Of a stretch of 46,194 nucleotides of DNA, positions 1 to 37,506 are shown in pieces (the stretch's first letter is position 1; each line of letters opens with the position of its first letter). The stretch is taken from assembly GCA_944392235.1 (NCBI GenBank), contig CALXVZ010000008.1:1-46194 (forward strand), read 5' to 3'. This stretch comes from an uncultured Alphaproteobacteria bacterium (GTDB taxonomy: Bacteria; Pseudomonadota; Alphaproteobacteria; RF32; CAG-239). The position numbers and the translations under genes were made by a program. The notes under the pieces are model-generated. The model searched no databases. It was given only the letters and a program-made list of their open reading frames with translations, and was not told where the DNA came from.

Positions 1-3000
1 TTTATACCATCTACGCTATTTAGCATATCGGTTTTGCTCTTCATGCCATACCAAGAACCTTCGCCTCTTGTCGTCATTTCTATCCCTTGTGGGTTGGTTA
101 GCGTTGTATATTGTGTTATATCCGTAGCACTTGTTCTGTAACATCCACTGGTTTCATCTAAGGAACAGATATTTCCTTCCGGACAGTCTTCTTCTTTATT
201 ATAATATCCATTATTTGTATCACATGTGTATGTGCAGGTATTACAAGTGTTTTCGCCTGATTTGTTAGCTGTTGGTGTAGGTGTTGCTATTTTTCCTGTT
301 TCTTCGGGGCAAGTTACGTATTCTCCTTTCGGACAAGATTTAGCATCTTGTTTGATAAAGCATTTTGAGGATGAATCTTGGACGCAGGTGTATCCTTCGT
401 TTGCTTTTTCGCACTGAATTCCCGTGTTGTATTGTCCTTTTTCTTCATTGCAGCTTGTTAATATATAACATCCACTGACTGAATCTTTAGAACACTCTCC
501 GAATGTTATAATTTGGCATACGGAAAGATCATCATAATATCCAGATGCGGTATCGCAAGAATAAGAACAACTTACGCAAGGTTTGTCTCCAGAAAAATTA
601 TTACCATCTACTTTTTCTTTGATTGTTGTTCCTTCTTTTTTAGGACAATTTCCTTCTGTATAATATCCTACAGGACAATCTTTGGCATCTCCTTTTAGAT
701 AGCACCCATTTTGTTCTATGTCGCATTTATATCCTTTATGGGTTTGTGAACATTCAGAACTTGAATTGTAGTAACCATTGGAGGTATTACAGCTGTTTGT
801 GTTATAACATTCAGTAAATTCATTATATAAACATGTCCATTCAGGATTTGCTAATATACATTCGTCATTGTCATTGTAATGTTTTTCTTCAGTATTGCAA
901 CTATACTTACATGTATAGCAAATTTCTTCTCCTGCCATATTGCCGCTTGGAATGGCTTCAACAGTGTTTTCTTCTTTGGGTGGACATTGTGTATGTTCAT
1001 TTTCGGGGCAGCCTTTTACATCTCCTTTGATATAACAATCATTATCGGCTTTGCAATAATATCCAGGATATTCTTTTTCACATGTCTCTTGAGTGTCATA
1101 AAAATGTTGTTCTGTGTTACATGTTTTAGGGTAATAACACTGACTGATACTGTCTAATGAACAAATCTTATTTGTATGTGCGGCACTGCATGTTTCTTGT
1201 AATTCGTAGTAATTATTTTTAGTATCACATGCATATTCACATAAGAGACACTTTTTGTCTCCGGATATGTTTCCTGTTTCTGATGAACCTGTTAGTATTT
1301 TACCAGTGATACTTGGGCAGCTCGTATATTCGTTTGGTGGACATTCTTTGATTTCTCCTTTTATGTAACATCCTTGCGATAATATGCATTTGTAGCCTTT
1401 ATAGGTATTTTCACAAGTTTCTTGTTTGTTATAGTAGTTATTTTCTTCATCACAGGTTGTTGCTATGTAACAAATTCCGTTTGGACCTAAATCGCATAGT
1501 TTTCCGGTATTTGCTGTTGTGCATTCGTCTATTTCTGTGTAGTTTCCTTGAGCATTGTCACATTCATAACTACATGTGTTACATTGAGATTCTCCGGCAT
1601 AGTTTCCAGTTGGATTAGATATTGTTGTCATTCCTTCTTTTGGTGGACATGTTGTATATTCATCTTTAGGGCACTCTAATGCAAGGTCTTTTATATAGCA
1701 ACTGCCACTCTTTTTACAGCTATATCCAATATTATTGGTAGTGCAGTTCTCCATGCTATCATAATAACCTTGTTCTGCATCGCATCCGGTTGGAATGTAA
1801 CAATTGGATTCTCTGTTTTTATCGCATGTTCTACCAGTATTTGCTAACATACACTCTTCATTCGTGGTATAGAATTTTTCATCGGTATTGCAAACATATG
1901 AGCATGTATAGCATTTATTACTTCCGGATACATTTCCTGTTTCTTCATATTGTGCTTTTAACCCATATTTCTTTGGGCATTGTCCTTCTAAATACTCTTC
2001 TTCAGGGCAGGGAGCGTCATCTGTTTTTATATAACATCCTGATTCTAGGTCTTGTCCGCAGATATATCCTGTATTTGCGGATTCACAACCTTGCTTATCA
2101 CTATAGTAACCATTTTCATTTTGACAGCTGTATATACATTTGTAACATGCTTCATCTCCGGCAAAATTGCCAGTTGCTTCTTCTTTTAAATCGTTTCCGG
2201 GTTTATCTGCACATCCGCCACTCGTATATTCGTTAGAAGGACAAGTTTTGGCTTCTCCTTTGATATAACATTTACTCGTGTTATCTAATTGACAATTATA
2301 CCCTTTATATGCGTTTTCACACATCTCGTCGGTGTCGTAATAGTTATTATCTATGTCGCAACCAGATATTTTATAACACCCATTTTCTATGTCTTGGAAA
2401 CAAAGTCTTCCTGTATTTGCTGTTGTGCATTGTTCGTTGCTGTCATAATAACCTTCGGTTGTATTACATGTGTATGAACATGTATAGCATGGTTCTTCAC
2501 CTGACATTTCTCCACTAGGATTTTCGGAAACGGTTGTTCCAGGTTTTTTAGGGCAATTGCCTGTTGTATATTGTTCTGTTGGACAAGTTTTGGCTTCTCC
2601 TTTGATGAAGCAATCATTGTTAAATGTGCATTCATAGCCAGGGAAGGCTTTTTCGCAATCTTCTAATTCTGCATACCAACCCATATCTATGCGACAGCCA
2701 GATATCATATAGCATTGTGATTCACTATCTAAAGCACATGAACGCCCTGTATTTTCTGCTTCACATTTGCCTTTGTCTTGGTAATAGCCGTCACCACTGC
2801 ATGTGTATATGCATATGTAACATTTATCTTCACCGGCGTAATTGCCACTTTCTTGTTTTTCTATGGTGTTTCCTACTCTTGGTGGGCAGTCTTGGGTGAA
2901 TTCATCTAATGGACACTCTTTGGCTTCCCCTTTGATGAAGCATTCTCCTTGTTGAACGCAGTTATAGCCTTTATTGGCTGAACTACATAAATCTAGTGAT

Positions 3001-6000
3001 GAATAATAGCCTTTTTCTTGGTCGCATCCGGTCGGAATGTAACAGTTTGAATTTAGATTATATTCGCAAATTTTTTCTGGATTTGCTAAGTTGCATTCTT
3101 CCTGATTTGTATAGTAATTCTGACTGTTGTCGCAACTGTATTCGCATATGTTACATACATCTTCTCCAGATTTATTCTCTGTTGGTGTTGCGGTAACCTT
3201 ATTTCCTTCTTTCGGCGCACACGTTACATATTCTCCATCAGGGCAATCTTTTTTGCCATCTTTTTTGTAACATCCATTTTGAGAAACACAGTTATAGCCG
3301 GAATTATTCTTTTCACAAGTTGGCTGGTCATCATAGTAGCCCTCTGAAAGGTTACATCCATTTGGTTTGAAACATCCTGAACTTGCATCAGATGAGCAAA
3401 TATATTCTGGTTTGGCTATGTTACATGCTTCTTCACTTTCATAGTAATTATTACTTGTGTCGCATGTATAGCTACATGTATTACATTGATGTTCTCCTGA
3501 ATAATTGTCTGTTGGTGTTGGGATGGCTTGCATGCCTTTTTTAATAGGACATTCTATGTATTCATTATTAGGGCATTCTTTTGCTTCACCTTTAGTATAG
3601 CAAGAATTGCTATCTCGACATGTATATCCTTTGTTATTGTTTTCACAAGTTTCTTTATCTTCATAATAGCCATCTTCTCCGTTACAGCTGGATGTTACAT
3701 AACATCCTGATGCATCATTGAGAATACATATAAATTCGGGGTAATTCAATAAACAATCTTCTTCAGAAGTAAAGAAACCTTGTGAAGTATTACAGGTGTA
3801 ATGACATGTATAGCATTTTTCACTTCCACTCATCTCCCCACTTTCTTCTTCTGAAACATTGTTACCTATTTGTGGAGGGCATTTACCTGAAGTATACTGT
3901 CCGGCTGGACATGCTTTAGGTTCGCCTTTGACGTAACAATCATCTTCTAATTTACAACTGTATCCCGTATTGTTGCTTTCACATTCGTCTTGTCTGTCAT
4001 AATGTCCTTTATTTATATCGCAACCTGTCGGAATATAACATCCAGATGTTTCATCCTTTGAACATACTTTTGTTGGATGAGCACCTGTGCAACTTAATTC
4101 ATCGGTATAATGTTGTGTTGAGTTGTCACAACTATATTCGCATGTGTAGCATTTTTCATCGCCACTGAAATGATCCGTTGGATTTTCAATTGTGGTGTTT
4201 CCTTTTTTAGGTGGACATAATCCAGTTGTATATTCTCCTTCAGGGCAGGGAATTGTGCTACTCTTTGTGTAGCATCCTTTGGTCTCAGAACATTTCCATC
4301 CTGGAGATGCTAATTCGCACGCATCTTGGCTATCATACCATCCTTTGGATGTATTGCAACTTCCAGGTATATGACAACCCGATGTTTTATCTTGGGAGCA
4401 TATGTTACCGGGATGGCTAGATAAGCAATCATCCTGATTATCGTAGTAATTATTTCCTGTGTCGCACCCGTATGTGCAGCTATAACAAGCTTGCTCTCCA
4501 GAGTAGTTGCCTGTTGCACTAGGTGTTGCTATTTGACCTTCTTTTACCGGACATTCTGTATATTCTTCAGCAGGACACTGTTTGGCATCACTTTTTATAT
4601 AGCAACCATTACTTTGTATACTACAGTTGTAGCCGCGGTTAGCTTGTTCACATTCTTCTTGCTTATCATAATTACCACTAGATATATCGCATTTGCTTGT
4701 AACATAACATTCCGTTTCTGGATTTAGTGCACATGTTAATCCAGGGTTGGCTTGTGTGCAGGCATCCTGATCATCGTAATATTTTTGGTTTGTATCGCAT
4801 TTTCCTTTGATATAGCAAGAACTACCACTATCTAGATTACATAAGTGGCCTTTATTAGCAGCAGTGCAGCTTTCATCGTTATCAAAGTAACCGTTTGAAG
4901 TATTGCACCCGCTTACTTGATAACATTCTGATGTTTCGTCTATGGAACATATTTTTCCTATGTTGGCACTTTCGCATTCTTCTCCGCTGGAATAGTAATT
5001 TTCTGAAGTGTTACATGTATATGTGCAGGTATAGCATTGTTTTTCCCCGCTCATGTTTCCACTTTCGATATGCTCTACATTATTTCCAGGTTTTGATGGG
5101 CATTGACCTTCAAGGTATTCTCCTTGCGGGCAATCTTTCGGAGTGCCTTTTACATAGCATTTGTCTTGTAATTGACAATTATAACCATTATTGGCAGCTT
5201 CGCACTCTTCAGTATTATCATAAAAACCGCCGCTATTGTTACAGCCGGAAGGAACATAACAGCCTGATTCTTGATTTATATTGCAGAATTGTTCAGGGTT
5301 GGCGCGTTGACATGTTTCTGAATCTGAATAATAATTTTCTGCCTCTATACATGTATATGAACATGTATAACATTGTTTTTCTCCAGAAAAGTTATCTGTT
5401 GGGGTTTGGCTTACATCATTGCCAATTTTACTTGGACATTCAGTGTATTCTTGTTCGGGTTCGCTTGGGCAGGCTTTTTCGCTTCCTTTTATATAACAAC
5501 CGTTTTGTATTTGGCAGTTGTAACCTATATAATGTTTTTCACAGTCGTTTTGTTCGTTATAATAATTCTCGCTTTCGTTACATGCTGCGGAAATATAACA
5601 AGATGTTGCTTCATCTTTTTCACATAAGTGTCCGATGTTACTTGATAAACATTCTTGCTCCTCATCATAATATCCGGCGGAACTGTTACATTTTGTTGGT
5701 ATATAACAACCGCTTTCGGCATCAGGACTGCAGAGCATTCCTGTATTTGCACTTTGGCAACTTAGTGCGTCATCATAGTATTTTTTGCTAGTGTCACATG
5801 TATAAATACATCTATAGCATTTATCCTCGCCTGATAAATTTCCTGATGCTGTTTCACTTACAGTTGTTCCAGTCTTTTCAGGACATTTTCCTTTTAGATA
5901 TTCTCCTTCAGGACAATCTTTTTTGTTGCCTTTAATATAGCATCCATCTCCAGCGGATGTGCAATAGTAACCGGTGAATTTTTGTTCGCAAGAACTTACA

Positions 6001-7946
6001 GAATCATAATATCCTAATATATTGTTACAGCCACTTGGTTTATAACAGCTTGATTTATCATCAAAACTACAGATTTTTCCATAGTTGGCTTGTGTGCAGC
6101 TTTGATTGTCTTTATAGTATTTTAGTTCGGTATTACAAGTATATTTACAGATACCACAACTTTGATCTCCAGCGTAATTACCTGTTTCTTCTTTATTGGT
6201 AATATTTCCAGGTTTTGGTGTGCAATATGTTGCTTCACCTTCCGGACAAGTTTTAGCAGTGCCACGCATGTAACATCCATTATTTTCTATGACATTATAT
6301 CCGGGATATTTGCTACTGACTTCTTCTGATGTGTTATAATATCCTTGATCGTTGTCACATCCTGATACGCGATAGCATTTTGATTTTTCATCAAATGAAC
6401 AGCTCTTATTTGTATTGGCAATGATACATGCTGAATTTGAATCATAGTATTTTTGTGATGCATCACATCCGGATACTCGATAACATCCAGAAGGTTCAAC
6501 CACAGAGCATAAATTACCTATATTATTACTTTTGCACTCGCTTAAGCTATCGTAATATGCTTCTGAAACATTACATTTATATATACAGCGATAGCAAAGA
6601 TCGTCTCCTGAATAGTTTGGGGTTGCTATTGTTGTAAATGTTGTTCCTTCAACGTCTGGACAGTTTCCGTTTATATATTGATTTTGTGGACAGTCTTTAG
6701 CACTCCCTTTAACATAGCATCCATTTTCTAATACTCCGTTATAACCTGGGTATTTTTTATTTAATTCTTCTAATGTATCGAAGTATCCTCGATTATTATC
6801 GCAACCTGTTACTTTATAACATCCTGATATGTCATTGTATCCGCAGGATTTGCTAGGGTTGGCGATTTGACACTCATTTTCTCCTTTATAATAACCTTGT
6901 TTATTATCGCAGGTGTATGTGCAAGTGTAACATTTTTCCTCACCGGAGATATGTCCTGTTTCTGTTTGACTAATGCTGTTTCCTGGTTTTACTGGACACT
7001 TGCCGGCTGTATATTCTCCTTCTGGACACGGAATTACTTGATAATTACATTTATAACATTTATTGGAGCCGGATAAGTTACCGGTTTCCGTTTGTGTTAA
7101 ATCATAGCCTTCTTTTTCTTCACAACTTGTTGCCTCGCCGTTAGGACATGGTAGTGCTGTATTTTTTATGTAGCATCCATTGTCATGTTTTTTACAGCTA
7201 TATCCTGGATATGCTTGCATACAGTTGTTGTTGTCTTGATAATAGCCTTGAGATTCATCACAATCGTATTGGCATATATAACATTGTTCATTACCGGAAA
7301 ATGATGTTGACGGAACCTCTGTTAATTCTGTTCCGGCATAACTTGGGCAACCGCCTTTTAAATATTGTCCAGCAGGACAGTCTGCCGGTATACAAGTTTT
7401 TTCATCGGCTTTTTTCCAGAATTGTTGACAGCTGTCTAATTTGAATTTGCCTTCGCAACTTGAGCAAAGACCATGTTCTGGACATTCATCTAGAGGGTAG
7501 TCGTTGACATTGCAACGTATAGGCTCGGAATTTCCTCCACCACCTCCAGAGCCTATAGCTAAAGCTCCTCCGGCAACTAGTGCAGTGCCTGCTATTAAGA
7601 GTCCGGCATTTATTCCACCTGTTTCTTTGATGATTTTTTGACTTTGTATATTTGAATTATCATGACAGGGGACTTTTATTGATGCTCCGAATTGTAGCAG
7701 CAGTTTATAAGCGGAATAATCATTTTGCTGTTGTGCAATGCATAGAGCCGTATTTTGTGTCGCGGAATCTTTGATATTTATGTAGCGTTTAAATTCTTCT
7801 AAGCGGGTGATATTGGCATTTTTTGCCCATAAATATAAATGATACGGTGTCAGCCTAGTTGCTGCCGATACAGTATTTATATTTATTATCATTACCATGG
7901 ATATTGTGCTTAATACATTTCCAAGGCGTCTAATCAAACGTTTCAA
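1..7946 (-). CDS. Giant secreted cysteine-rich repeat protein (C-terminus beyond window)
   Basis: I do not recognise a named family. The frame has no stop in the stretches I read by eye from the TTG start to the window edge, at least 2648 codons. The TTG is preceded by GGAG at a good distance and by an in-frame TGA just upstream, and there is no earlier ATG. Residues 1-28 form a basic then hydrophobic signal peptide (KRLIRRLG start, TVSAA end). Residues about 30-100 include an ankyrin-like helix pair (NTALCIAQQQ, KLLLQFGASI). About residues 118-143 form a Gly/Ala-rich hydrophobic segment ending in GSGGGGG. Everything after is Cys-rich repeats with CxxC pairs (for example CYTCTYTC), about 12 Cys per 111 residues. 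Such density in an exported protein suggests many disulfides or bound metal. A surface or secreted fibre or adhesin is possible, but no function can be assigned. The C-terminal anchor or passenger is not visible. Confidence 0.9.
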   Translation of the reverse strand, partial: MKRLIRRLGNVLSTISMVMIININTVSAATRLTPYHLYLWAKNANITRLEEFKRYINIKDSATQNTALCIAQQQNDYSAYKLLLQFGASIKVPCHDNSNIQSQKIIKETGGINAGLLIAGTALVAGGALAIGSGGGGGNSEPIRCNVNDYPLDECPEHGLCSSCEGKFKLDSCQQFWKKADEKTCIPADCPAGQYLKGGCPSYAGTELTEVPSTSFSGNEQCYICQYDCDESQGYYQDNNNCMQAYPGYSCKKHDNGCYIKNTALPCPNGEATSCEEKEGYDLTQTETGNLSGSNKCYKCNYQVIPCPEGEYTAGKCPVKPGNSISQTETGHISGEEKCYTCTYTCDNKQGYYKGENECQIANPSKSCGYNDISGCYKVTGCDNNRGYFDTLEELNKKYPGYNGVLENGCYVKGSAKDCPQNQYINGNCPDVEGTTFTTIATPNYSGDDLCYRCIYKCNVSEAYYDSLSECKSNNIGNLCSVVEPSGCYRVSGCDASQKYYDSNSACIIANTNKSCSFDEKSKCYRVSGCDNDQGYYNTSEEVSSKYPGYNVIENNGCYMRGTAKTCPEGEATYCTPKPGNITNKEETGNYAGDQSCGICKYTCNTELKYYKDNQSCTQANYGKICSFDDKSSCYKPSGCNNILGYYDSVSSCEQKFTGYYCTSAGDGCYIKGNKKDCPEGEYLKGKCPEKTGTTVSETASGNLSGEDKCYRCIYTCDTSKKYYDDALSCQSANTGMLCSPDAESGCYIPTKCNSSAGYYDEEQECLSSNIGHLCEKDEATSCYISAACNESENYYNEQNDCEKHYIGYNCQIQNGCYIKGSEKACPSEPEQEYTECPSKIGNDVSQTPTDNFSGEKQCYTCSYTCIEAENYYSDSETCQRANPEQFCNINQESGCYVPSGCNNSGGFYDNTEECEAANNGYNCQLQDKCYVKGTPKDCPQGEYLEGQCPSKPGNNVEHIESGNMSGEKQCYTCTYTCNTSENYYSSGEECESANIGKICSIDETSECYQVSGCNTSNGYFDNDESCTAANKGHLCNLDSGSSCYIKGKCDTNQKYYDDQDACTQANPGLTCALNPETECYVTSKCDISSGNYDKQEECEQANRGYNCSIQSNGCYIKSDAKQCPAEEYTECPVKEGQIATPSATGNYSGEQACYSCTYGCDTGNNYYDNQDDCLSSHPGNICSQDKTSGCHIPGSCNTSKGWYDSQDACELASPGWKCSETKGCYTKSSTIPCPEGEYTTGLCPPKKGNTTIENPTDHFSGDEKCYTCEYSCDNSTQHYTDELSCTGAHPTKVCSKDETSGCYIPTGCDINKGHYDRQDECESNNTGYSCKLEDDCYVKGEPKACPAGQYTSGKCPPQIGNNVSEEESGEMSGSEKCYTCHYTCNTSQGFFTSEEDCLLNYPEFICILNDASGCYVTSSCNGEDGYYEDKETCENNNKGYTCRDSNSCYTKGEAKECPNNEYIECPIKKGMQAIPTPTDNYSGEHQCNTCSYTCDTSNNYYESEEACNIAKPEYICSSDASSGCFKPNGCNLSEGYYDDQPTCEKNNSGYNCVSQNGCYKKDGKKDCPDGEYVTCAPKEGNKVTATPTENKSGEDVCNICEYSCDNSQNYYTNQEECNLANPEKICEYNLNSNCYIPTGCDQEKGYYSSLDLCSSANKGYNCVQQGECFIKGEAKECPLDEFTQDCPPRVGNTIEKQESGNYAGEDKCYICIYTCSGDGYYQDKGKCEAENTGRSCALDSESQCYMISGCRIDMGWYAELEDCEKAFPGYECTFNNDCFIKGEAKTCPTEQYTTGNCPKKPGTTVSENPSGEMSGEEPCYTCSYTCNTTEGYYDSNEQCTTANTGRLCFQDIENGCYKISGCDIDNNYYDTDEMCENAYKGYNCQLDNTSKCYIKGEAKTCPSNEYTSGGCADKPGNDLKEEATGNFAGDEACYKCIYSCQNENGYYSDKQGCESANTGYICGQDLESGCYIKTDDAPCPEEEYLEGQCPKKYGLKAQYEETGNVSGSNKCYTCSYVCNTDEKFYTTNEECMLANTGRTCDKNRESNCYIPTGCDAEQGYYDSMENCTTNNIGYSCKKSGSCYIKDLALECPKDEYTTCPPKEGMTTISNPTGNYAGESQCNTCSYECDNAQGNYTEIDECTTANTGKLCDLGPNGICYIATTCDEENNYYNKQETCENTYKGYKCILSQGCYIKGEIKECPPNEYTSCPSITGKILTGSSETGNISGDKKCLLCEYACDTKNNYYELQETCSAAHTNKICSLDSISQCYYPKTCNTEQHFYDTQETCEKEYPGYYCKADNDCYIKGDVKGCPENEHTQCPPKEENTVEAIPSGNMAGEEICYTCKYSCNTEEKHYNDNDECILANPEWTCLYNEFTECYNTNSCNTSNGYYNSSSECSQTHKGYKCDIEQNGCYLKGDAKDCPVGYYTEGNCPKKEGTTIKEKVDGNNFSGDKPCVSCSYSCDTASGYYDDLSVCQIITFGECSKDSVSGCYILTSCNEEKGQYNTGIQCEKANEGYTCVQDSSSKCFIKQDAKSCPKGEYVTCPEETGKIATPTPTANKSGENTCNTCTYTCDTNNGYYNKEEDCPEGNICSLDETSGCYRTSATDITQYTTLTNPQGIEMTTRGEGSWYGMKSKTDMLNSVDGI
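200..7480 (-). repeat. Tandem coding array of ~111-bp modules in ~332-bp higher-order units
   Basis: The recurring CPxGEY-type motif of the encoded protein appears about 22 times. Spacings between copies cluster at about 332 bp, with exceptions near 118, 235, 450 and 556 bp, all close to multiples of 111 bp. One unit has three submodules. The first begins GCYxKGxAKxCP and contains a second CP, a Gly-Thr stretch and SGE. The second is CxxCxYxCD, then YY, then two spaced Cys. The third is a GC pair, then GYYD, then two spaced Cys. Submodules two and three resemble each other. Copies are diverged at DNA level, so this is an old array rather than a recent perfect expansion. Confidence 0.85.
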
Positions 7947-8023
7947 TAAAAAGTCTCCGCTTATACACTTTTGGATTCAGTTTAATTGTTAATGTTTAAT
8001 AATCCGTAAAAATAAACGAAAAT

Positions 8024-8070: not shown

Positions 8071-8268
8071 TTTTCAAATAGTTATATCTTATTAGTTATT
8101 CTCCTTTCTGACGGGTATTTATTATGCTATATTTGTTGGCGATAATTAAATCAATATTTTGTCTATTTTAAAAATCATACATCTGTCTGTTTTTAAAAGG
8201 AAATTAAACTTTTTTTTATAAAGTTTTTGTATGATATTTTAAAAAAGTTTTTTAGAGGGGATTTTGAT

Positions 8269-9375
8269 ATGGATTTGTTTGATACAATTGAAAAATTAAT
8301 TAAATTCAAAACAGAGACAGGAACAGTTTCCGAAATTGATAAATGTCTTGATTATATAGCTTCTTGCTTTGAAGGAACAGATGCTGTTGTGCAAATCGAA
8401 AGATTTGATAATGCTAGTCCTGTAATTTTTATTAGAAATAATCATGATATGCATCAAGATGCTTTGGTTTTGGGACATATTGATGTTGTTAAAGCTGATG
8501 ATAAAATGTTTATTCCTTATGTAAATGATGGAAAAATGTTTGGTCGTGGAACATTGGATATGAAATCTTTTGCTGCGGTTGCTATTCATTCTATGCTCTA
8601 TGTGCTTAAAAATAAATTGCCTGTGAAATTTGGTATTCTTCTCTCTACTGATGAAGAAAAAGGTAGCAAAAGCACTCATGCTTTTATGGAACGTTTTCCT
8701 GCAGTCAATGCTAATGTCGTTTTGGATAACGATGTTGGTGGCGATATTACTAAAATTATTAATAAATGCAAAAATCCTGTTTTTGTTAAACTTCTGGCTA
8801 AAGGTAAACAGGCTCATGGCTCAACTCCTTGGGAGGGAATTGATGCAAATGAGCTCTTAATGCATTCATTGGTTAATTTGAGAAAAATTTATCCTTATTC
8901 TGATTTAAATACTGGAGCTCCTAAAAATACTTGGATTGATACTATGCATGTTGCTTTAATGCAAGGTGGTGAAGTTTCTAATATTATTGCCGGTAATGCT
9001 GAGGCTCTTATTGATTTTCGTTTGGTTGAAACATCTACTCTTGAACAGTTGGAAATGAAATTGCAAAATGCTTGTGTAGATGGTGTTACATATAAAATTG
9101 TTTCATCTTCTACTCCAGTTGTGATGAGCGAAAAAAATCCGCTTATTCTTGAATATAAAAAATTGGCTGAAAAAATTATGGGCGTTTCTGTAGAATTTCA
9201 ACAAATTGGCGGAGCTACAGATGCTCGATTATTTGCTGAAAAAGGAGCTACGGTTATTATGCATTCCGGAACAGGCGAGGGGATGCATGGTGATGATGAA
9301 TATGTTGTTATGAAATCTGTTGAAGATTTGGCTAAAATCCAAATCGAATACTTAAAGTCGCTTGCTCATGAGTAA
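8269..9375 (+). CDS. M20-family metallopeptidase/deacylase (ArgE/DapE/CPG2-like)
   Basis: This is a di-zinc amidohydrolase of the M20 family, which removes acyl or amino-acid groups from small cytoplasmic substrates. Metal-site motifs are present: GHIDVV (His70, Asp72), GRGTLDMK (Asp97), STDEEKGS (Glu129-Glu130), DNDVGGD (Asp154) and a late GMHGDDE (His340). Length is 368 residues, near the usual ~380. ATG 8269 is chosen over an upstream TTG at 8227 because GAGGGG sits 8 bp before it. The stop overlaps the start of the next gene by 8 bp, so the two are probably co-translated. Substrate (acetylornithine, succinyl-diaminopimelate or a peptide) cannot be told from the sequence. Confidence 0.88.
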   Translation: MDLFDTIEKLIKFKTETGTVSEIDKCLDYIASCFEGTDAVVQIERFDNASPVIFIRNNHDMHQDALVLGHIDVVKADDKMFIPYVNDGKMFGRGTLDMKSFAAVAIHSMLYVLKNKLPVKFGILLSTDEEKGSKSTHAFMERFPAVNANVVLDNDVGGDITKIINKCKNPVFVKLLAKGKQAHGSTPWEGIDANELLMHSLVNLRKIYPYSDLNTGAPKNTWIDTMHVALMQGGEVSNIIAGNAEALIDFRLVETSTLEQLEMKLQNACVDGVTYKIVSSSTPVVMSEKNPLILEYKKLAEKIMGVSVEFQQIGGATDARLFAEKGATVIMHSGTGEGMHGDDEYVVMKSVEDLAKIQIEYLKSLAHE

Positions 9376-13191: not shown

Positions 13192-13806
13192 TTAGCTGAA
13201 TATCCAAGTTATATCGTTATCATTCTTGCGGTTGCATGCTTTGCTGATTTGTTCTAAGGTTGGGCGACTGCTTCCGGTACTGCTTAGTAATGAATTGATT
13301 TTATAACGGGTATGGATTTGTGTCGTGTCATAGAAGGAGTATTCATAATACCACGCGGTGTTGTTGTTTACAATCAATGCGTCTAAATCTGAGCCATTAT
13401 TGTAAAATTGCCCTTGTAATAATAATTCAATGCAGCCTTTTTGATAGATGTCTTCAAAGGTAATATAAAATAAATATTTATCATTGGAATCAATTGTGCC
13501 ATCACCAACAGGACCAAATGTTATTTTACCACTTAGAGCATGGTGTAAATTTCTCATATCTAACGGAATGGCTTTTTTGGCTTGCATTAATTCTTCATCT
13601 AAGTTGACATAACTATCATCTGCTGCGGTAAAGTTTACGATGGCTTTTTTTAAATCTAAAATCTGTTGGGCTATTCGGCCTGTCTTGTATCGTGTTAATA
13701 CGGCTCCTACATATGAGGCTAAGATAACACCTAAGGTTCCTAATACACTAATATACAAGATCGTTTCTATCATTGTTGATCCTTTTTCGTTATTGGCGAA
13801 ACGCAT
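13192..13806 (-). CDS. Orphan type IV pilin-like protein (pseudopilin)
   Basis: The N-terminus has a class III signal: short basic leader, Gly9 before the cleavage point, then STMIE with Glu at +5, followed by a 20-residue hydrophobic helix (TILYISVLGTLGVILASYV). This is the prepilin-peptidase substrate pattern. The rest, to residue 204, is a globular domain with a final SKACNRK segment and no recognised subfamily. An AAGGAG site precedes ATG 13806. No prepilin peptidase, assembly ATPase or secretin is nearby. A second pilin-like gene of different sequence is at 26842-27462. Confidence 0.8.
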   Translation of the reverse strand: MRFANNEKGSTMIETILYISVLGTLGVILASYVGAVLTRYKTGRIAQQILDLKKAIVNFTAADDSYVNLDEELMQAKKAIPLDMRNLHHALSGKITFGPVGDGTIDSNDKYLFYITFEDIYQKGCIELLLQGQFYNNGSDLDALIVNNNTAWYYEYSFYDTTQIHTRYKINSLLSSTGSSRPTLEQISKACNRKNDNDITWIFS

Positions 13807-26841: not shown

Positions 26842-27462
26842 TTATTTCCAGAGAATACGCATGAAACATTGACTTTGGTTTAAACATGTGGTTTGACACA
26901 GTTCAATTATTTTAGCTGGATTTAAATCTCTTAAACATCCTAATCCTTCTTTGCAATAATTGTCTCCGTAATAACGAGTGTCAAAATTTGAACTGTCACT
27001 ATCTTCTTCTTGATGTATAAAATGTGTTTGCCATATAATGGGACTTAGCTCTTTACTGAAGTTTAATATGTTAAAACATGTTTTTGTATCTACCTTGTTG
27101 TTTTTACCTGTAATGACCATTGTGAAAAAGTATCTGTCAAAGCTTATAAAAATTTGATTGCCTAATGCATCATATATCAGGTTGCTATCGTTTGTGGTCA
27201 TTTCTTCGGGGATAATTCCAGCATTTTGGAGAAAAGATGTTATGTTTACGATAGAATTTTTGGGGAGACCTTTTATATCTAGCAGAGGCAAAGATTGTGT
27301 TATAATTTTTGTGTATTGTTCTATTTGCTTGTTGGTGCGATGTTTTATTATCGCTTTGTTGTAGCCGGTGATTCCTCCAATTGATAAAATGCCTACTATC
27401 GCTATTACTCCTAACATCTCTAACATTGAACGTCCAGCTTGTTCAATCTTATTTCGTTTCAT
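26842..27462 (-). CDS. Second orphan pseudopilin, cysteine-rich C-terminus
   Basis: The class III signal is clear: basic leader, Gly10 before cleavage, then RSMLE with Glu at +5 and a hydrophobic helix (MLGVIAIVGILSIGGITGY). The 206-residue protein has a globular domain ending with several Cys (DNYCKEGLGC, ELCQTTCLNQSQC) that probably form disulfides in the periplasm. A strong GGGGGG site precedes ATG 27462. Immediately upstream is a structured, terminator-ended RNA that may control it. No pilus or type II secretion genes are nearby. Confidence 0.82.
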   Translation of the reverse strand: MKRNKIEQAGRSMLEMLGVIAIVGILSIGGITGYNKAIIKHRTNKQIEQYTKIITQSLPLLDIKGLPKNSIVNITSFLQNAGIIPEEMTTNDSNLIYDALGNQIFISFDRYFFTMVITGKNNKVDTKTCFNILNFSKELSPIIWQTHFIHQEEDSDSSNFDTRYYGDNYCKEGLGCLRDLNPAKIIELCQTTCLNQSQCFMRILWK

Positions 27463-34277: not shown

Positions 34278-36200
34278 CTATTTTAATTCTTGTTTTAAGA
34301 TTGTTGTGGTGAGAATTTGTGGTAAAATTTTTGGGGTGTCAGAGCCTTGTGGGTAGTAAACGTAAAGAGGTATGCTATTACGGTTATAGCTCTTTAAGGC
34401 TTCTCCGATAATCTCATCTTTATTTGTCCAATCAGCTTTGAATATTCTTATCTTTTTATCTTTTACCAACTCTTTGAAGGTTTCTGTTGATAGTGAACTC
34501 TTGTCGTTTAATAAGCATACTAAACACCATTTAGCTGTGAAATTGATGAATACAGCTTGTTTTTTTTCTACAGCTTGTTCTACTTTATTTTGCTCATATG
34601 TTTCCCATGATATTTCTGTTTTATCAGAGCTGGGGGACAGTTGATTGCTTATAATCCATCCTAGCCAGAAACATGTCAGTAATATGGGGAATGCTAAAAT
34701 CCTTTTTAATGTTATCATCCAATATCCTGGTTTAGGGATATATCTTAAAAAGAATTTGGGGAATAATTCGATAAGCGTATAGGGAAGGGCGTATCCTATA
34801 CTTAATGACAAAAAGATACAGAAATAAATTAGTGCTGGTTTAGTTATAGCGTATCCTAAGGCTGCTCCCATAAATGGTCCGGTGCATGGGCATGCGATAA
34901 CTACGGCGAAAAATCCGGTCAGAAAACTTTGTTTGCCGGCTAATTTGCTGAGTGAATCTGCAAAATTATCAGGGAGAGGTAATCTATCTATCAGGTTTAA
35001 GAATATTAGAATAAATAGAATTAATAGCATGATATTAAAAATTGGTGATTGTAATTGAAATCCCCATCCTAATTCATTGCCTAACTCTCTTAAATAAAAT
35101 AGAATTCCGGCTAAAAATAGAAAAGAACATACAACACCACTTAAATATGATAGAGCTGATAATGGAGAGTTCTTGTGTCTGTTTTGAACTAAATATAATG
35201 CTTTAAGGCTTAAAATCGGTAATACGCAAGGCATTAAATTTAGTATTAATCCTGCAATAAATGCTGTTAATATATAATACCATAATCCTTGATTTTCTGA
35301 AGGAGTGTTATTGGGTAAATGTTCTGCTTTGTTTGTCTCAGCTTTAGCTTCTGTTATTGTTTGTGTATTAATAGGGAGTGATTTGGCAGATATTTCTGGC
35401 GTTGTCGGTTCAACGTAATATGCGTGTCCGGGGCAGAGTATTATTCCTCTATAATCTGGTGGTAATTCGCTTTCTGAAAAATCAACTTGGATTTGGTTAT
35501 GTGAGGCTACTTTAGTTTCCGGTAATTCTGATAAAATTCCCTTTTTCGGATGATAGCTTACAAATTCGGCTTCTCCGCAATCTTGGAATATTTGGTCTTG
35601 TAATTCTATTTCTAATTGTTTTTCGCGAATTCTTGCTTTTGCAGATAGTTTTAGTGGAAAGCTGTTTTCAGCTTGGATTACAGTGCTTAAATATGTAGGA
35701 TTTGTTTCTGCTTTTTCTCCTATAGGGAGGGCAAAGTTTAGATGAATATCCTCCGGTAAACATGATTCTTGGCATGCTGTATATGATAAGACTATTCTAA
35801 ATGGTAGTCGTGTTATATTTTCTAAATTCTTTAATTCAAAACTGCTCTTAAAATAAATTTTCTTGGTGTATATGTAGGATGTGATCATTTCTTCATATAC
35901 TGATTTTGCAGGTGAGGAGTGTATGCTGCTTGTTTCTTTGTAGTAAGGCGATTCAAAAAATGTAAGAGTTGTCGGACCGCCTATATCTCCTGGATTGTCC
36001 CAATATAAATGCCAGCCTTGTTCTATATCGGCTTCGGCTATGATATTTATATGTTTTGTTTCGGATGATAGTGTTTTATACTCCGGCGTAATTCGTAAAT
36101 TTACAAGTTTTGTTTGTTGGTTGAAGCTAATCGCCGATGCTGTTTCAGATAATGCACATAAAAATATTGTTAGAAATATGATTAAAAATTTTTTCAGCAT
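34278..36200 (-). CDS. DsbD/ScsB-family thiol:disulfide interchange protein
   Basis: The protein carries reducing power from cytoplasmic thioredoxin across the inner membrane to periplasmic thiols. Signal peptide is residues 1-23. The N-terminal periplasmic domain (about 24-290) has Cys143 and Cys147 (TACQESC). The central polytopic domain has the two redox Cys motifs LNLMPCVLPIL and ACPCTGPFMG. The C-terminal thioredoxin-like domain has Cys559-Leu-Val-Cys562 (KWCLVCLL). At 640 residues it matches ScsB-like DsbD proteins. It starts 22 bp after the binding-protein gene, and AAGAAAGG precedes the ATG. Confidence 0.9.
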   Translation of the reverse strand: MLKKFLIIFLTIFLCALSETASAISFNQQTKLVNLRITPEYKTLSSETKHINIIAEADIEQGWHLYWDNPGDIGGPTTLTFFESPYYKETSSIHSSPAKSVYEEMITSYIYTKKIYFKSSFELKNLENITRLPFRIVLSYTACQESCLPEDIHLNFALPIGEKAETNPTYLSTVIQAENSFPLKLSAKARIREKQLEIELQDQIFQDCGEAEFVSYHPKKGILSELPETKVASHNQIQVDFSESELPPDYRGIILCPGHAYYVEPTTPEISAKSLPINTQTITEAKAETNKAEHLPNNTPSENQGLWYYILTAFIAGLILNLMPCVLPILSLKALYLVQNRHKNSPLSALSYLSGVVCSFLFLAGILFYLRELGNELGWGFQLQSPIFNIMLLILFILIFLNLIDRLPLPDNFADSLSKLAGKQSFLTGFFAVVIACPCTGPFMGAALGYAITKPALIYFCIFLSLSIGYALPYTLIELFPKFFLRYIPKPGYWMITLKRILAFPILLTCFWLGWIISNQLSPSSDKTEISWETYEQNKVEQAVEKKQAVFINFTAKWCLVCLLNDKSSLSTETFKELVKDKKIRIFKADWTNKDEIIGEALKSYNRNSIPLYVYYPQGSDTPKILPQILTTTILKQELK

Positions 36201-36222
36201 ATGTTTTAACCTTTCTTGAAGA

Positions 36223-37338
36223 TTAATATACTTGTTTAAATTCGCCGTTTTGATACATTTCTATTATATATTTCGAAGATTTAATACTTCCACTATGCAT
36301 TAAAAATTCGCTCCATTTTTCTTTTGCTTCTTCACTGTTGGCGGCTTTAGACAGTTTATCATATGAGAAACCTTTAACTTGTTTGGCTAAATCACCCCAG
36401 AGCTTAACAGCTACATAACTGTATGCTTCCAATCCTTCCGGCTCAATTCCTAATAAGCGTAGATTAACTAAATTTTCCGTAAACATTAAGCTATCTTTAA
36501 GGCCAGGTAAAGTCATAGCATATAAACCGTCTGCTTTATTATTTAATTTTTCTAAGGCTTGAGGCGAGACTAATCCTTTATTAGTAAATAAAATTATGTC
36601 TTTATTTATTTCTTTTGCCGCATTCATAAGATTAATGGCTTCATCTTCTTCTCCCAGCACGAAAATGATATTTATATTATCGTCTTTTAATGATCGTGCT
36701 AAATCGTATACTCCTCCTTGTTCGCGGTTCAGAGCATAGAATTTTAATAATTCACTTTTTCCATAGCGGCGAAACTCTTCATATAGTGATTTGGCTACTT
36801 CTGCATAGCCTAATTCAGGTTTGTCATTATATATGAATCCTACTTTCATGCCAGCATAGTTTCGATTATAAAAACGGAAAAAATCTCCACTCATCTGGGC
36901 TTTTGTGCCTAATAGCAAAATTTGACCTTTCTTATCAAAATTATCGGCGTTGTATGTAACTGTAGTCGGAACTATTTGGAAAATTTTTGCTTGTTCATAA
37001 ATATCGGCAATTTCTTCAAAACGATTGGAGCAATAAGGTCCTACAACTAAACCTATTTTTTTAGATTTTAATAAAGTTAGCATTTCTGCTGTCGATATGG
37101 CTAATCTATCATCGCATCGGTCGTCAATGGTGAGCATATCTAATTTTTCTCCGTTAAGTCCTCCATTGTTGTTTATTTCTTCTATAGCTAACCGTGCACC
37201 ATTAAATAGTTCTGTTCCTTGTTGGACATATTCTCCGGCTTTGGGGGCTATCACCGCAAGGGTTATTTCGGCTTTGGCAGTGCTTATCCAACATAATTCT
37301 ATAATGCTGATAAAGAATATATAGATGAATTTTGTCAT
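36223..37338 (-). CDS. LivJ-type periplasmic binding protein (Peripla_BP_6), orphan
   Basis: The 371-residue protein has a signal peptide (about residues 1-23, ending STAKA) and the type I periplasmic-binding fold of branched-chain amino-acid receptors: LAVIAPKAGEYVQQG, GARLAIEEINNNGGLNG, VVGPYCSNRF and GLYAMTLPG. These receptors deliver amino acids or related ligands to ABC transporters, or act as sensors. No LivH/M/G/F permease or ATPase genes are present. The dsbD-like gene follows 22 bp downstream, so the two are probably one operon. The ligand is unknown. Confidence 0.85.
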   Translation of the reverse strand: MTKFIYIFFISIIELCWISTAKAEITLAVIAPKAGEYVQQGTELFNGARLAIEEINNNGGLNGEKLDMLTIDDRCDDRLAISTAEMLTLLKSKKIGLVVGPYCSNRFEEIADIYEQAKIFQIVPTTVTYNADNFDKKGQILLLGTKAQMSGDFFRFYNRNYAGMKVGFIYNDKPELGYAEVAKSLYEEFRRYGKSELLKFYALNREQGGVYDLARSLKDDNINIIFVLGEEDEAINLMNAAKEINKDIILFTNKGLVSPQALEKLNNKADGLYAMTLPGLKDSLMFTENLVNLRLLGIEPEGLEAYSYVAVKLWGDLAKQVKGFSYDKLSKAANSEEAKEKWSEFLMHSGSIKSSKYIIEMYQNGEFKQVY

Positions 37339-37384
37339 ACTTCTTTTTTACAATCAAATTATTAGCGCTTTTTTATAAAAATTA

Positions 37385-37412
37385 GTTATATACATTATTT
37401 TTTAATTGGCAA
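37385..37412 (-). promoter_or_regulatory. Promoter of binding protein-dsbD operon
   Basis: On the minus strand TTGCCA (37412-37407) and TATAAC (37390-37385) are 16 bp apart. Confidence 0.5.
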
Positions 37413-37423
37413 GTTTTTTATAT

Positions 37424-37478
37424 AAAAAAAAGAGACAGATAAGCTCCTCCTTTGAGTTTATATATCTCTTATCTGTCT
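37424..37478 (-). terminator. Terminator after outer-membrane barrel gene
   Basis: AGACAGATAAG and CTTATCTGTCT form an 11-bp stem with a 24-nt loop, followed by eight T on the minus strand. Confidence 0.8.
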
Positions 37479-37506
37479 TCTTAGACTTTAATGTTTTTTA
37501 ATTCTA

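Follow-up and report, generated by a model that had tools for sequence, protein, structure and literature searches.

Type V secretion proteins are described as low in cysteine, with the cysteines that they have only a few residues apart, and this close spacing is expected to allow only small loops before passage through the outer membrane (PMC8151025, sections consulted). Similarly, most autotransporters carry few passenger cysteines, according to the part consulted of a paper on IcsA (PMC9769942). The chlamydial Pmps are autotransporters with many cysteines, up to 18 in the passenger (sections consulted of PMC8151025), and recombinant chlamydial PmpD forms disulfide-linked oligomers (PMC6005502, part consulted). 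Here we analyse a 46,194-nucleotide stretch of DNA (the window), which is the entire contig C8 of G000, the draft genome of an uncultured alphaproteobacterium (1.29 Mb, 31 contigs, 76.8% complete), and which ends inside a giant gene.

The product of this gene resembles type Va autotransporters with a PF03797 barrel in its signal peptide-like start, in its large passenger and, as far as complete homologues are concerned, in the barrel and a terminal F. It differs from them in the 262 cysteines of its passenger, against the low number of closely spaced cysteines described in the consulted sections of PMC8151025, and in the inferred spacing between the first and fourth cysteines of a module, about 29 residues against a few. 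It shares the many cysteines of the chlamydial Pmps, but has more than 14 times more of them, arranged in a module array. A Pmp identity was rejected, as GGA(I/L/V) and FxxN occur once and three times, respectively, in 2,648 residues and no Pfam Pmp match was found. The Giardia VSPs are similar by analogy only, as cysteine-dense surface proteins, and this identity was also rejected, the protein being bacterial, with no VSP model among its Pfam matches and no dominance of CxxC.

Results

The giant gene and its surroundings

The frame from 3 to 7946 on the minus strand runs from a TTG at 7946 through 2,648 codons without a stop and is open at the contig end (2,658 residues when the whole open frame is counted), in agreement with the original prediction of a giant, exported-looking protein whose gene continues past the window edge. 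A Shine-Dalgarno-like GGAG (7955..7958, minus) is located 8 nt 5' of the TTG; at each of the seven other loci in the comparison the distance is 7 nt, and the sequence GCGGAGA is present at all eight loci, including the window. Since this upstream GGAG is kept among the compared loci, whereas the frame above the TTG is not conserved, the TTG at 7946 is most likely the start codon. A divergently oriented M20 peptidase gene (8227..9375, plus; Pfam) adjoins the giant gene in nine of nine loci examined (L085-L091, L095, L099) and marks a conserved chromosomal position. Antisense frames within the giant gene, such as that at 4895..5791 on the plus strand (298 aa), were treated as chance, and a tRNA was the only match of an Rfam scan. 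Elsewhere in the window, a short pilin-like protein (13192-13806, minus) matched PilS in Pfam just above the cut-off, and another short protein (26842-27462, minus) looked pseudopilin-like by eye, with no Pfam match at E 0.01.

N-terminal regions

Residues 1 to ~28 (7863..7946, minus) form a signal peptide-like start according to hydropathy, with a hydrophobic window beginning at residue 11 and a candidate cleavage site, VSA/A (NTVSA/ATRL), judged by eye. They are followed by an ankyrin-like domain (residues 33-115; 7602..7850, minus), which was recognised by profile matches to ankyrin-type structures: profile A2 gave 54 matches with E <=0.01 against PDB sequences (best 2.8e-7), most of them named ankyrin-repeat or DARPin. 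The Pfam matches of this domain were weak, with Ank_2 in 3 and Ank in 1 of the 14 members, and the window's own row matched neither. A Gly/Ala-rich hydrophobic stretch then leads into a Gly-rich linker (residues ~111-140; 7527..7616, minus; sequence and hydropathy). Homologues have similar stretches.

Cysteine-rich modules

The protein contains 264 cysteines, 262 of which lie within residues 141-2602 (141..7526, minus), where they make up 10.6% of the residues; the cysteine content of twelve neighbouring proteins combined is 1.3%. This region, the putative passenger, is built of two kinds of module with four cysteines each, A of ~35 and B of ~40 residues. There are 37 A modules by pattern scan, or 43 by HMM matches when partial ones are counted, and 22 B modules, and the module matches span 2,109 residues of the 2,658-residue open frame. 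The order is mostly A-A-B, with 0 to 4 A modules between successive B modules in the pattern scan. In 13 aligned A-A-B units of 110-114 residues, all 12 cysteine columns are invariant, which agrees with the density of about 12 cysteines per 111 residues that had been noticed originally, and twelve of these units share 35-47% identity with the first. The 111-residue repeat that was first proposed is not one fixed unit, given the variable number of A modules. The statement that many of the cysteines occur as CxxC was exaggerated, as there are 23 such motifs, approximately one per unit. Neither CxC nor CC occurs in the window protein, and His accounts for only 0.8%. A cysteine-free stretch (residues 2603-2648; 3..140, minus), which by eye is like the beginning of the relatives' stem, precedes the contig end.

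Searches with the whole window protein against Pfam, NCBIfam and PDB sequences gave only chance-level matches; one NCBIfam and one PDB match near residues 39-99 coincide with the ankyrin-like domain. Similarly, no convincing family was found for the A-A-B unit in Pfam, NCBIfam, PHROGs or PDB sequences. Kazal and LDL-receptor class A identities were considered for this unit and rejected, the matches being weak (Kazal_C6 in one of the 13 units, E 0.0077; LDLRAD3, E 0.16), and a tblastn comparison of three units with phage records gave no match. AlphaFold2 modelling of one A-A-B unit, based on the 13-unit alignment, was confident (mean pLDDT 96.2, pTM 0.76), with each A module predicted as a short helix plus two strands and the B module as two long strands. 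A model of three units based on seven orthologue rows had a pLDDT of 92.5 and a pTM of 0.54; the individual modules are thus predicted with confidence, unlike their mutual arrangement and the shape of the string. Foldseek comparison of one unit with the PDB gave nothing convincing (two matches, best E 9.2). The libraries searched, including PDB folds for one unit, therefore hold no clear match to a named repeat family, as the original prediction had anticipated, and no described family that would contradict it.

Orthologues and the C-terminal region

The search for relatives of the giant protein covered 58 genomes, including that of the window, and 18 of them contained matches. Nearly full-length orthologues are present in G003, G017, G008, G009, G014 and G015, which belong to the same genus, at the corresponding chromosomal position and with 46-67% identity per segment and 48-63% identity to the window protein. 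A further genome, G011, matches residues 1-789 with 69% identity up to the end of its contig. The six long orthologues have the same stop-free frame and align through the last Cys modules, so that the stop or frameshift that could have undermined the original prediction did not appear in them. A more distant homologue in G007 (L047 5360-7315) is interrupted after 652 codons by an in-frame stop, within the Cys region; apart from this stop, its frame continues to the end of the contig, and decay or a draft error are both possible.

The continuation of the window gene was not found in G000, and its C-terminus is therefore deduced from relatives. The contigs of G003, G017, G008, G009 and G015 end near the break point of the window. 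In G003, the final 77 bases of the contig recur without a mismatch on a second contig, in the region coding for the C-terminus of a paralogue, which explains the break as a shared repeat that stopped the assembler; this paralogue also carries a C-terminal PF03797 domain. The orthologue in G014 aligns with window residues 1-1176 (50% identity) and 1101-2646 (49%), and the same 3,421-residue frame contains PF03797 (profile positions 11-255 of 255) shortly before its contig ends. Two more distant positional homologues adjoining the M20 gene, in G018 (3,235 residues) and G010 (3,370 residues), are complete and have a C-terminal PF03797 domain. The barrel of type Va autotransporters ends in an aromatic residue, and F is the last residue in both of these complete homologues. 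At the C-terminal end of the relatives, a stem that is free of cysteines and has YG(I/M) repeats leads into the PF03797 barrel, and the last cysteines of the G014, G018 and G010 proteins (2733, 2600 and 2712, respectively) each precede the stem and barrel.

The window gene is accordingly predicted by comparison to encode a type Va autotransporter, its export being well supported through the orthologues, and the full-length protein probably has ~3,300 residues, the first ~80% of which lie in the window. With PF03797 in the relatives, the export route would be of a described kind; it escaped the original prediction because the barrel lies past the window edge.

Conservation and pairing of the cysteines

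Across seven genomes (the window protein and the six orthologues), 263 of the 264 window cysteines are invariant; in gap-free columns, the corresponding figures are 33 of 221 for Ser, 133 of 230 for Gly and 124 of 218 for Tyr. The sole exception is position 1219, which is Ile in G015. The window protein has no cysteine at position 102, where all six orthologues have one, and it does not have an 8-Cys segment near position 1114, which fits its count of 22 B modules versus 23 in each orthologue. The dN/dS values were 0.05-0.21, with dS up to 2.59, a range taken from pairs of orthologues, as pairs with the window gene were saturated (dS 3.2 or not computable).

The fate of the four A-module cysteines was followed in 376 matches, 65 of which were set aside for a gap in a Cys column. 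Among the remaining 311, 303 keep all four cysteines and eight lose Cys2 and Cys3 jointly while keeping Cys1 and Cys4; a single loss of Cys2 or Cys3 was not seen in any of the 311. The eight paired losses are at two places in close orthologues and thus correspond to at most two events. The number of cysteines in the Cys region is even in 11 of 12 proteins, the odd one having 269. These 12 were taken from 30 Cys-rich frames; those that a contig end cuts within the Cys region, those lacking the ankyrin-start motif, and that of G007, interrupted by its in-frame stop and with 53 cysteines after the ankyrin-like domain, were omitted. Both G000 paralogues described below have even counts, and four Cys-rich proteins of other genera have two even and two odd ones (63 and 287). 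The paired losses and the even counts favour disulfides over metal, and the passenger is likely to consist of disulfide-clamped beads. Within the A modules, the comparison suggests that Cys2 likely pairs with Cys3 and, by elimination, Cys1 with Cys4.

Distribution and related proteins

The unit profile matched 25 of 153 family genomes (own counted), in 3 of 16 genera, whereas class-wide, in a sample with few members of the window's family, only the window's own genome matched among 385. A scan with the N-terminal domain identified 17 named loci, all from uncultured assemblies, 16 of Alphaproteobacteria and one of Rhodospirillales according to their titles; six of the 17 titles mention gut samples from deer, yak or water buffalo. 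PF03797 is found in all 19 genus genomes, with 2 to 11 matches each. A PF03797 match in G013 (C11:31419-32147) lies within a 4,165-residue open frame, which exceeds the homologues studied.

G000 itself has three PF03797 matches outside the window. Two are in paralogues, L053 and L054 (C1 ~191131-193029 and C2 ~35720-37486), which were identified with the C-terminal region of the G003 paralogue and have frames of 1,815 and 1,154 residues. By eye, both have the ankyrin-like start, the hydrophobic stretch and an end made of stem and barrel, but the 56 and 8 cysteines after their Gly linkers are far fewer than in the giant protein. Their sequences suggest that the giant protein and these paralogues perhaps form a family with swapped middle parts. 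The third match is at C1:1794-2516.

Other Cys-rich, exported-looking proteins with matches to the unit profile or the A modules occur in the genera g3 (L103, L107) and g14 (L102, L105, L106, L108, L109), with lengths of up to 2,912 residues and up to 288 cysteines. They resemble the giant protein in these matches, but they differ from it in that the ankyrin-start motif is absent and that Pfam found no PF03797 in five closed frames of these other genera. The L106 frame (g14) has an AMP-binding enzyme match at its end.

Redox and export context

Searches with Pfam models found neither DsbB nor VKOR in the 19 genus genomes or in 137 family genomes; control scans of 14 genomes were positive in 6 for DsbB and in 3 for VKOR. 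TamB was found in none of the 19 genus genomes. All 19 contain Thioredoxin_4 (DsbA-like) proteins, and G000 has three, one with a weak ScsC_N match below the cut-off. The window also codes for a DsbD/ScsB-like thiol:disulfide interchange protein (34278..36200, minus; DsbD_N, DsbD_TM and Thioredoxin_7 in Pfam), which we infer to be a possible helper of the giant protein. An oxidase of another kind may still act in this family.

Discussion

The reading that we consider probable is that the window encodes the N-terminal four-fifths or so of a type Va autotransporter whose Cys modules are disulfide-clamped and whose bead string probably forms a surface fibre. The chain would be exported by Sec and the C-terminal barrel would insert into the outer membrane. 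Emerging first, the Cys-free stem would fold, the Cys modules would follow from C to N and form a long string of small beads clamped by disulfides, and the ankyrin-like domain would end up at or near the tip. Such a string would probably be a tough fibre on the cell surface, with which the bacterium would bind to host, mucus or neighbouring cells. The architecture makes a disulfide-locked fibre or adhesin at the surface the most likely of the functions originally put forward, whereas the metal-binding layer lost ground through the paired cysteine loss and the parity.

Such a layer, in which Cys thiolates would hold Zn, Cu or other metals at the cell surface, is decidedly improbable. The very high cysteine content, the 23 CxxC motifs and the lack of DsbB and VKOR matches in the 137 sampled family genomes would all suit it. 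However, the joint loss of Cys2 and Cys3 with Cys1 and Cys4 kept is better accounted for by two disulfides per module than by one four-Cys site, and the even counts in 11 of 12 proteins, the lack of CxC and CC and the scarcity of His also argue against it. A passenger that stays at least partly reduced at the surface and cross-links Cys-rich host mucins or itself by thiol-disulfide exchange is improbable. The lack of DsbB and VKOR matches in the genus and family genomes is again consistent with this idea, as are the DsbD/ScsB-like protein on the same contig, the DsbA-like thioredoxins of all 19 genus genomes, the gut sources (deer, yak or water buffalo) named in 6 of 17 related loci titles, and the oligomers formed through disulfides by chlamydial PmpD (PMC6005502, part consulted); the near-complete invariance and even number of the cysteines, though, resemble fixed internal pairs rather than free thiols.

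The gene of the window species might also have a different C-terminus and not be an autotransporter, since its end is outside the contig, with no continuation found in G000, and since the five closed Cys-rich frames of other genera gave no match to PF03797. This is very improbable in view of the alignment of six long orthologues through the last Cys modules, the stem-like appearance by eye of the last window residues, and the three PF03797 matches elsewhere in G000, of which two belong to proteins that start similarly. An assembly chimera or a decayed gene, which the contig end inside the gene, the 76.8% completeness of the draft and the in-frame stop of the more distant G007 homologue might suggest, has a practically negligible probability, as the frame and module array recur in six long orthologues, dN/dS among the orthologues is low, and the start region and synteny are conserved.

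Under the preferred reading of a disulfide-clamped autotransporter, the beads either form after passage or are tolerated by the barrel. It is a tentative suggestion, and rather doubtful, that the Cys-packed giants of these alphaproteobacteria represent a class of autotransporters whose passenger, for want of DsbB and VKOR, is kept reduced in the periplasm by ScsB/ScsC-like thioredoxins and threaded unfolded through the barrel, with ~130 disulfides formed outside the cell.

A search of the literature, with most subscription journals outside its coverage, yielded no description of the giant protein. What is new here is a predicted type Va autotransporter with a cysteine count far above that in the published reports consulted, and a repeat undescribed in the libraries searched, a Cys-rich module that is predicted with confidence and for which the PDB offers no clear relative. 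The presence of 262 nearly invariant passenger cysteines in a family in which 137 genomes yielded no DsbB or VKOR match makes the order of passage and oxidation testable. If secretion does come first, this would be a new disulfide-clamped bead fold that is assembled in order, from the membrane outward.
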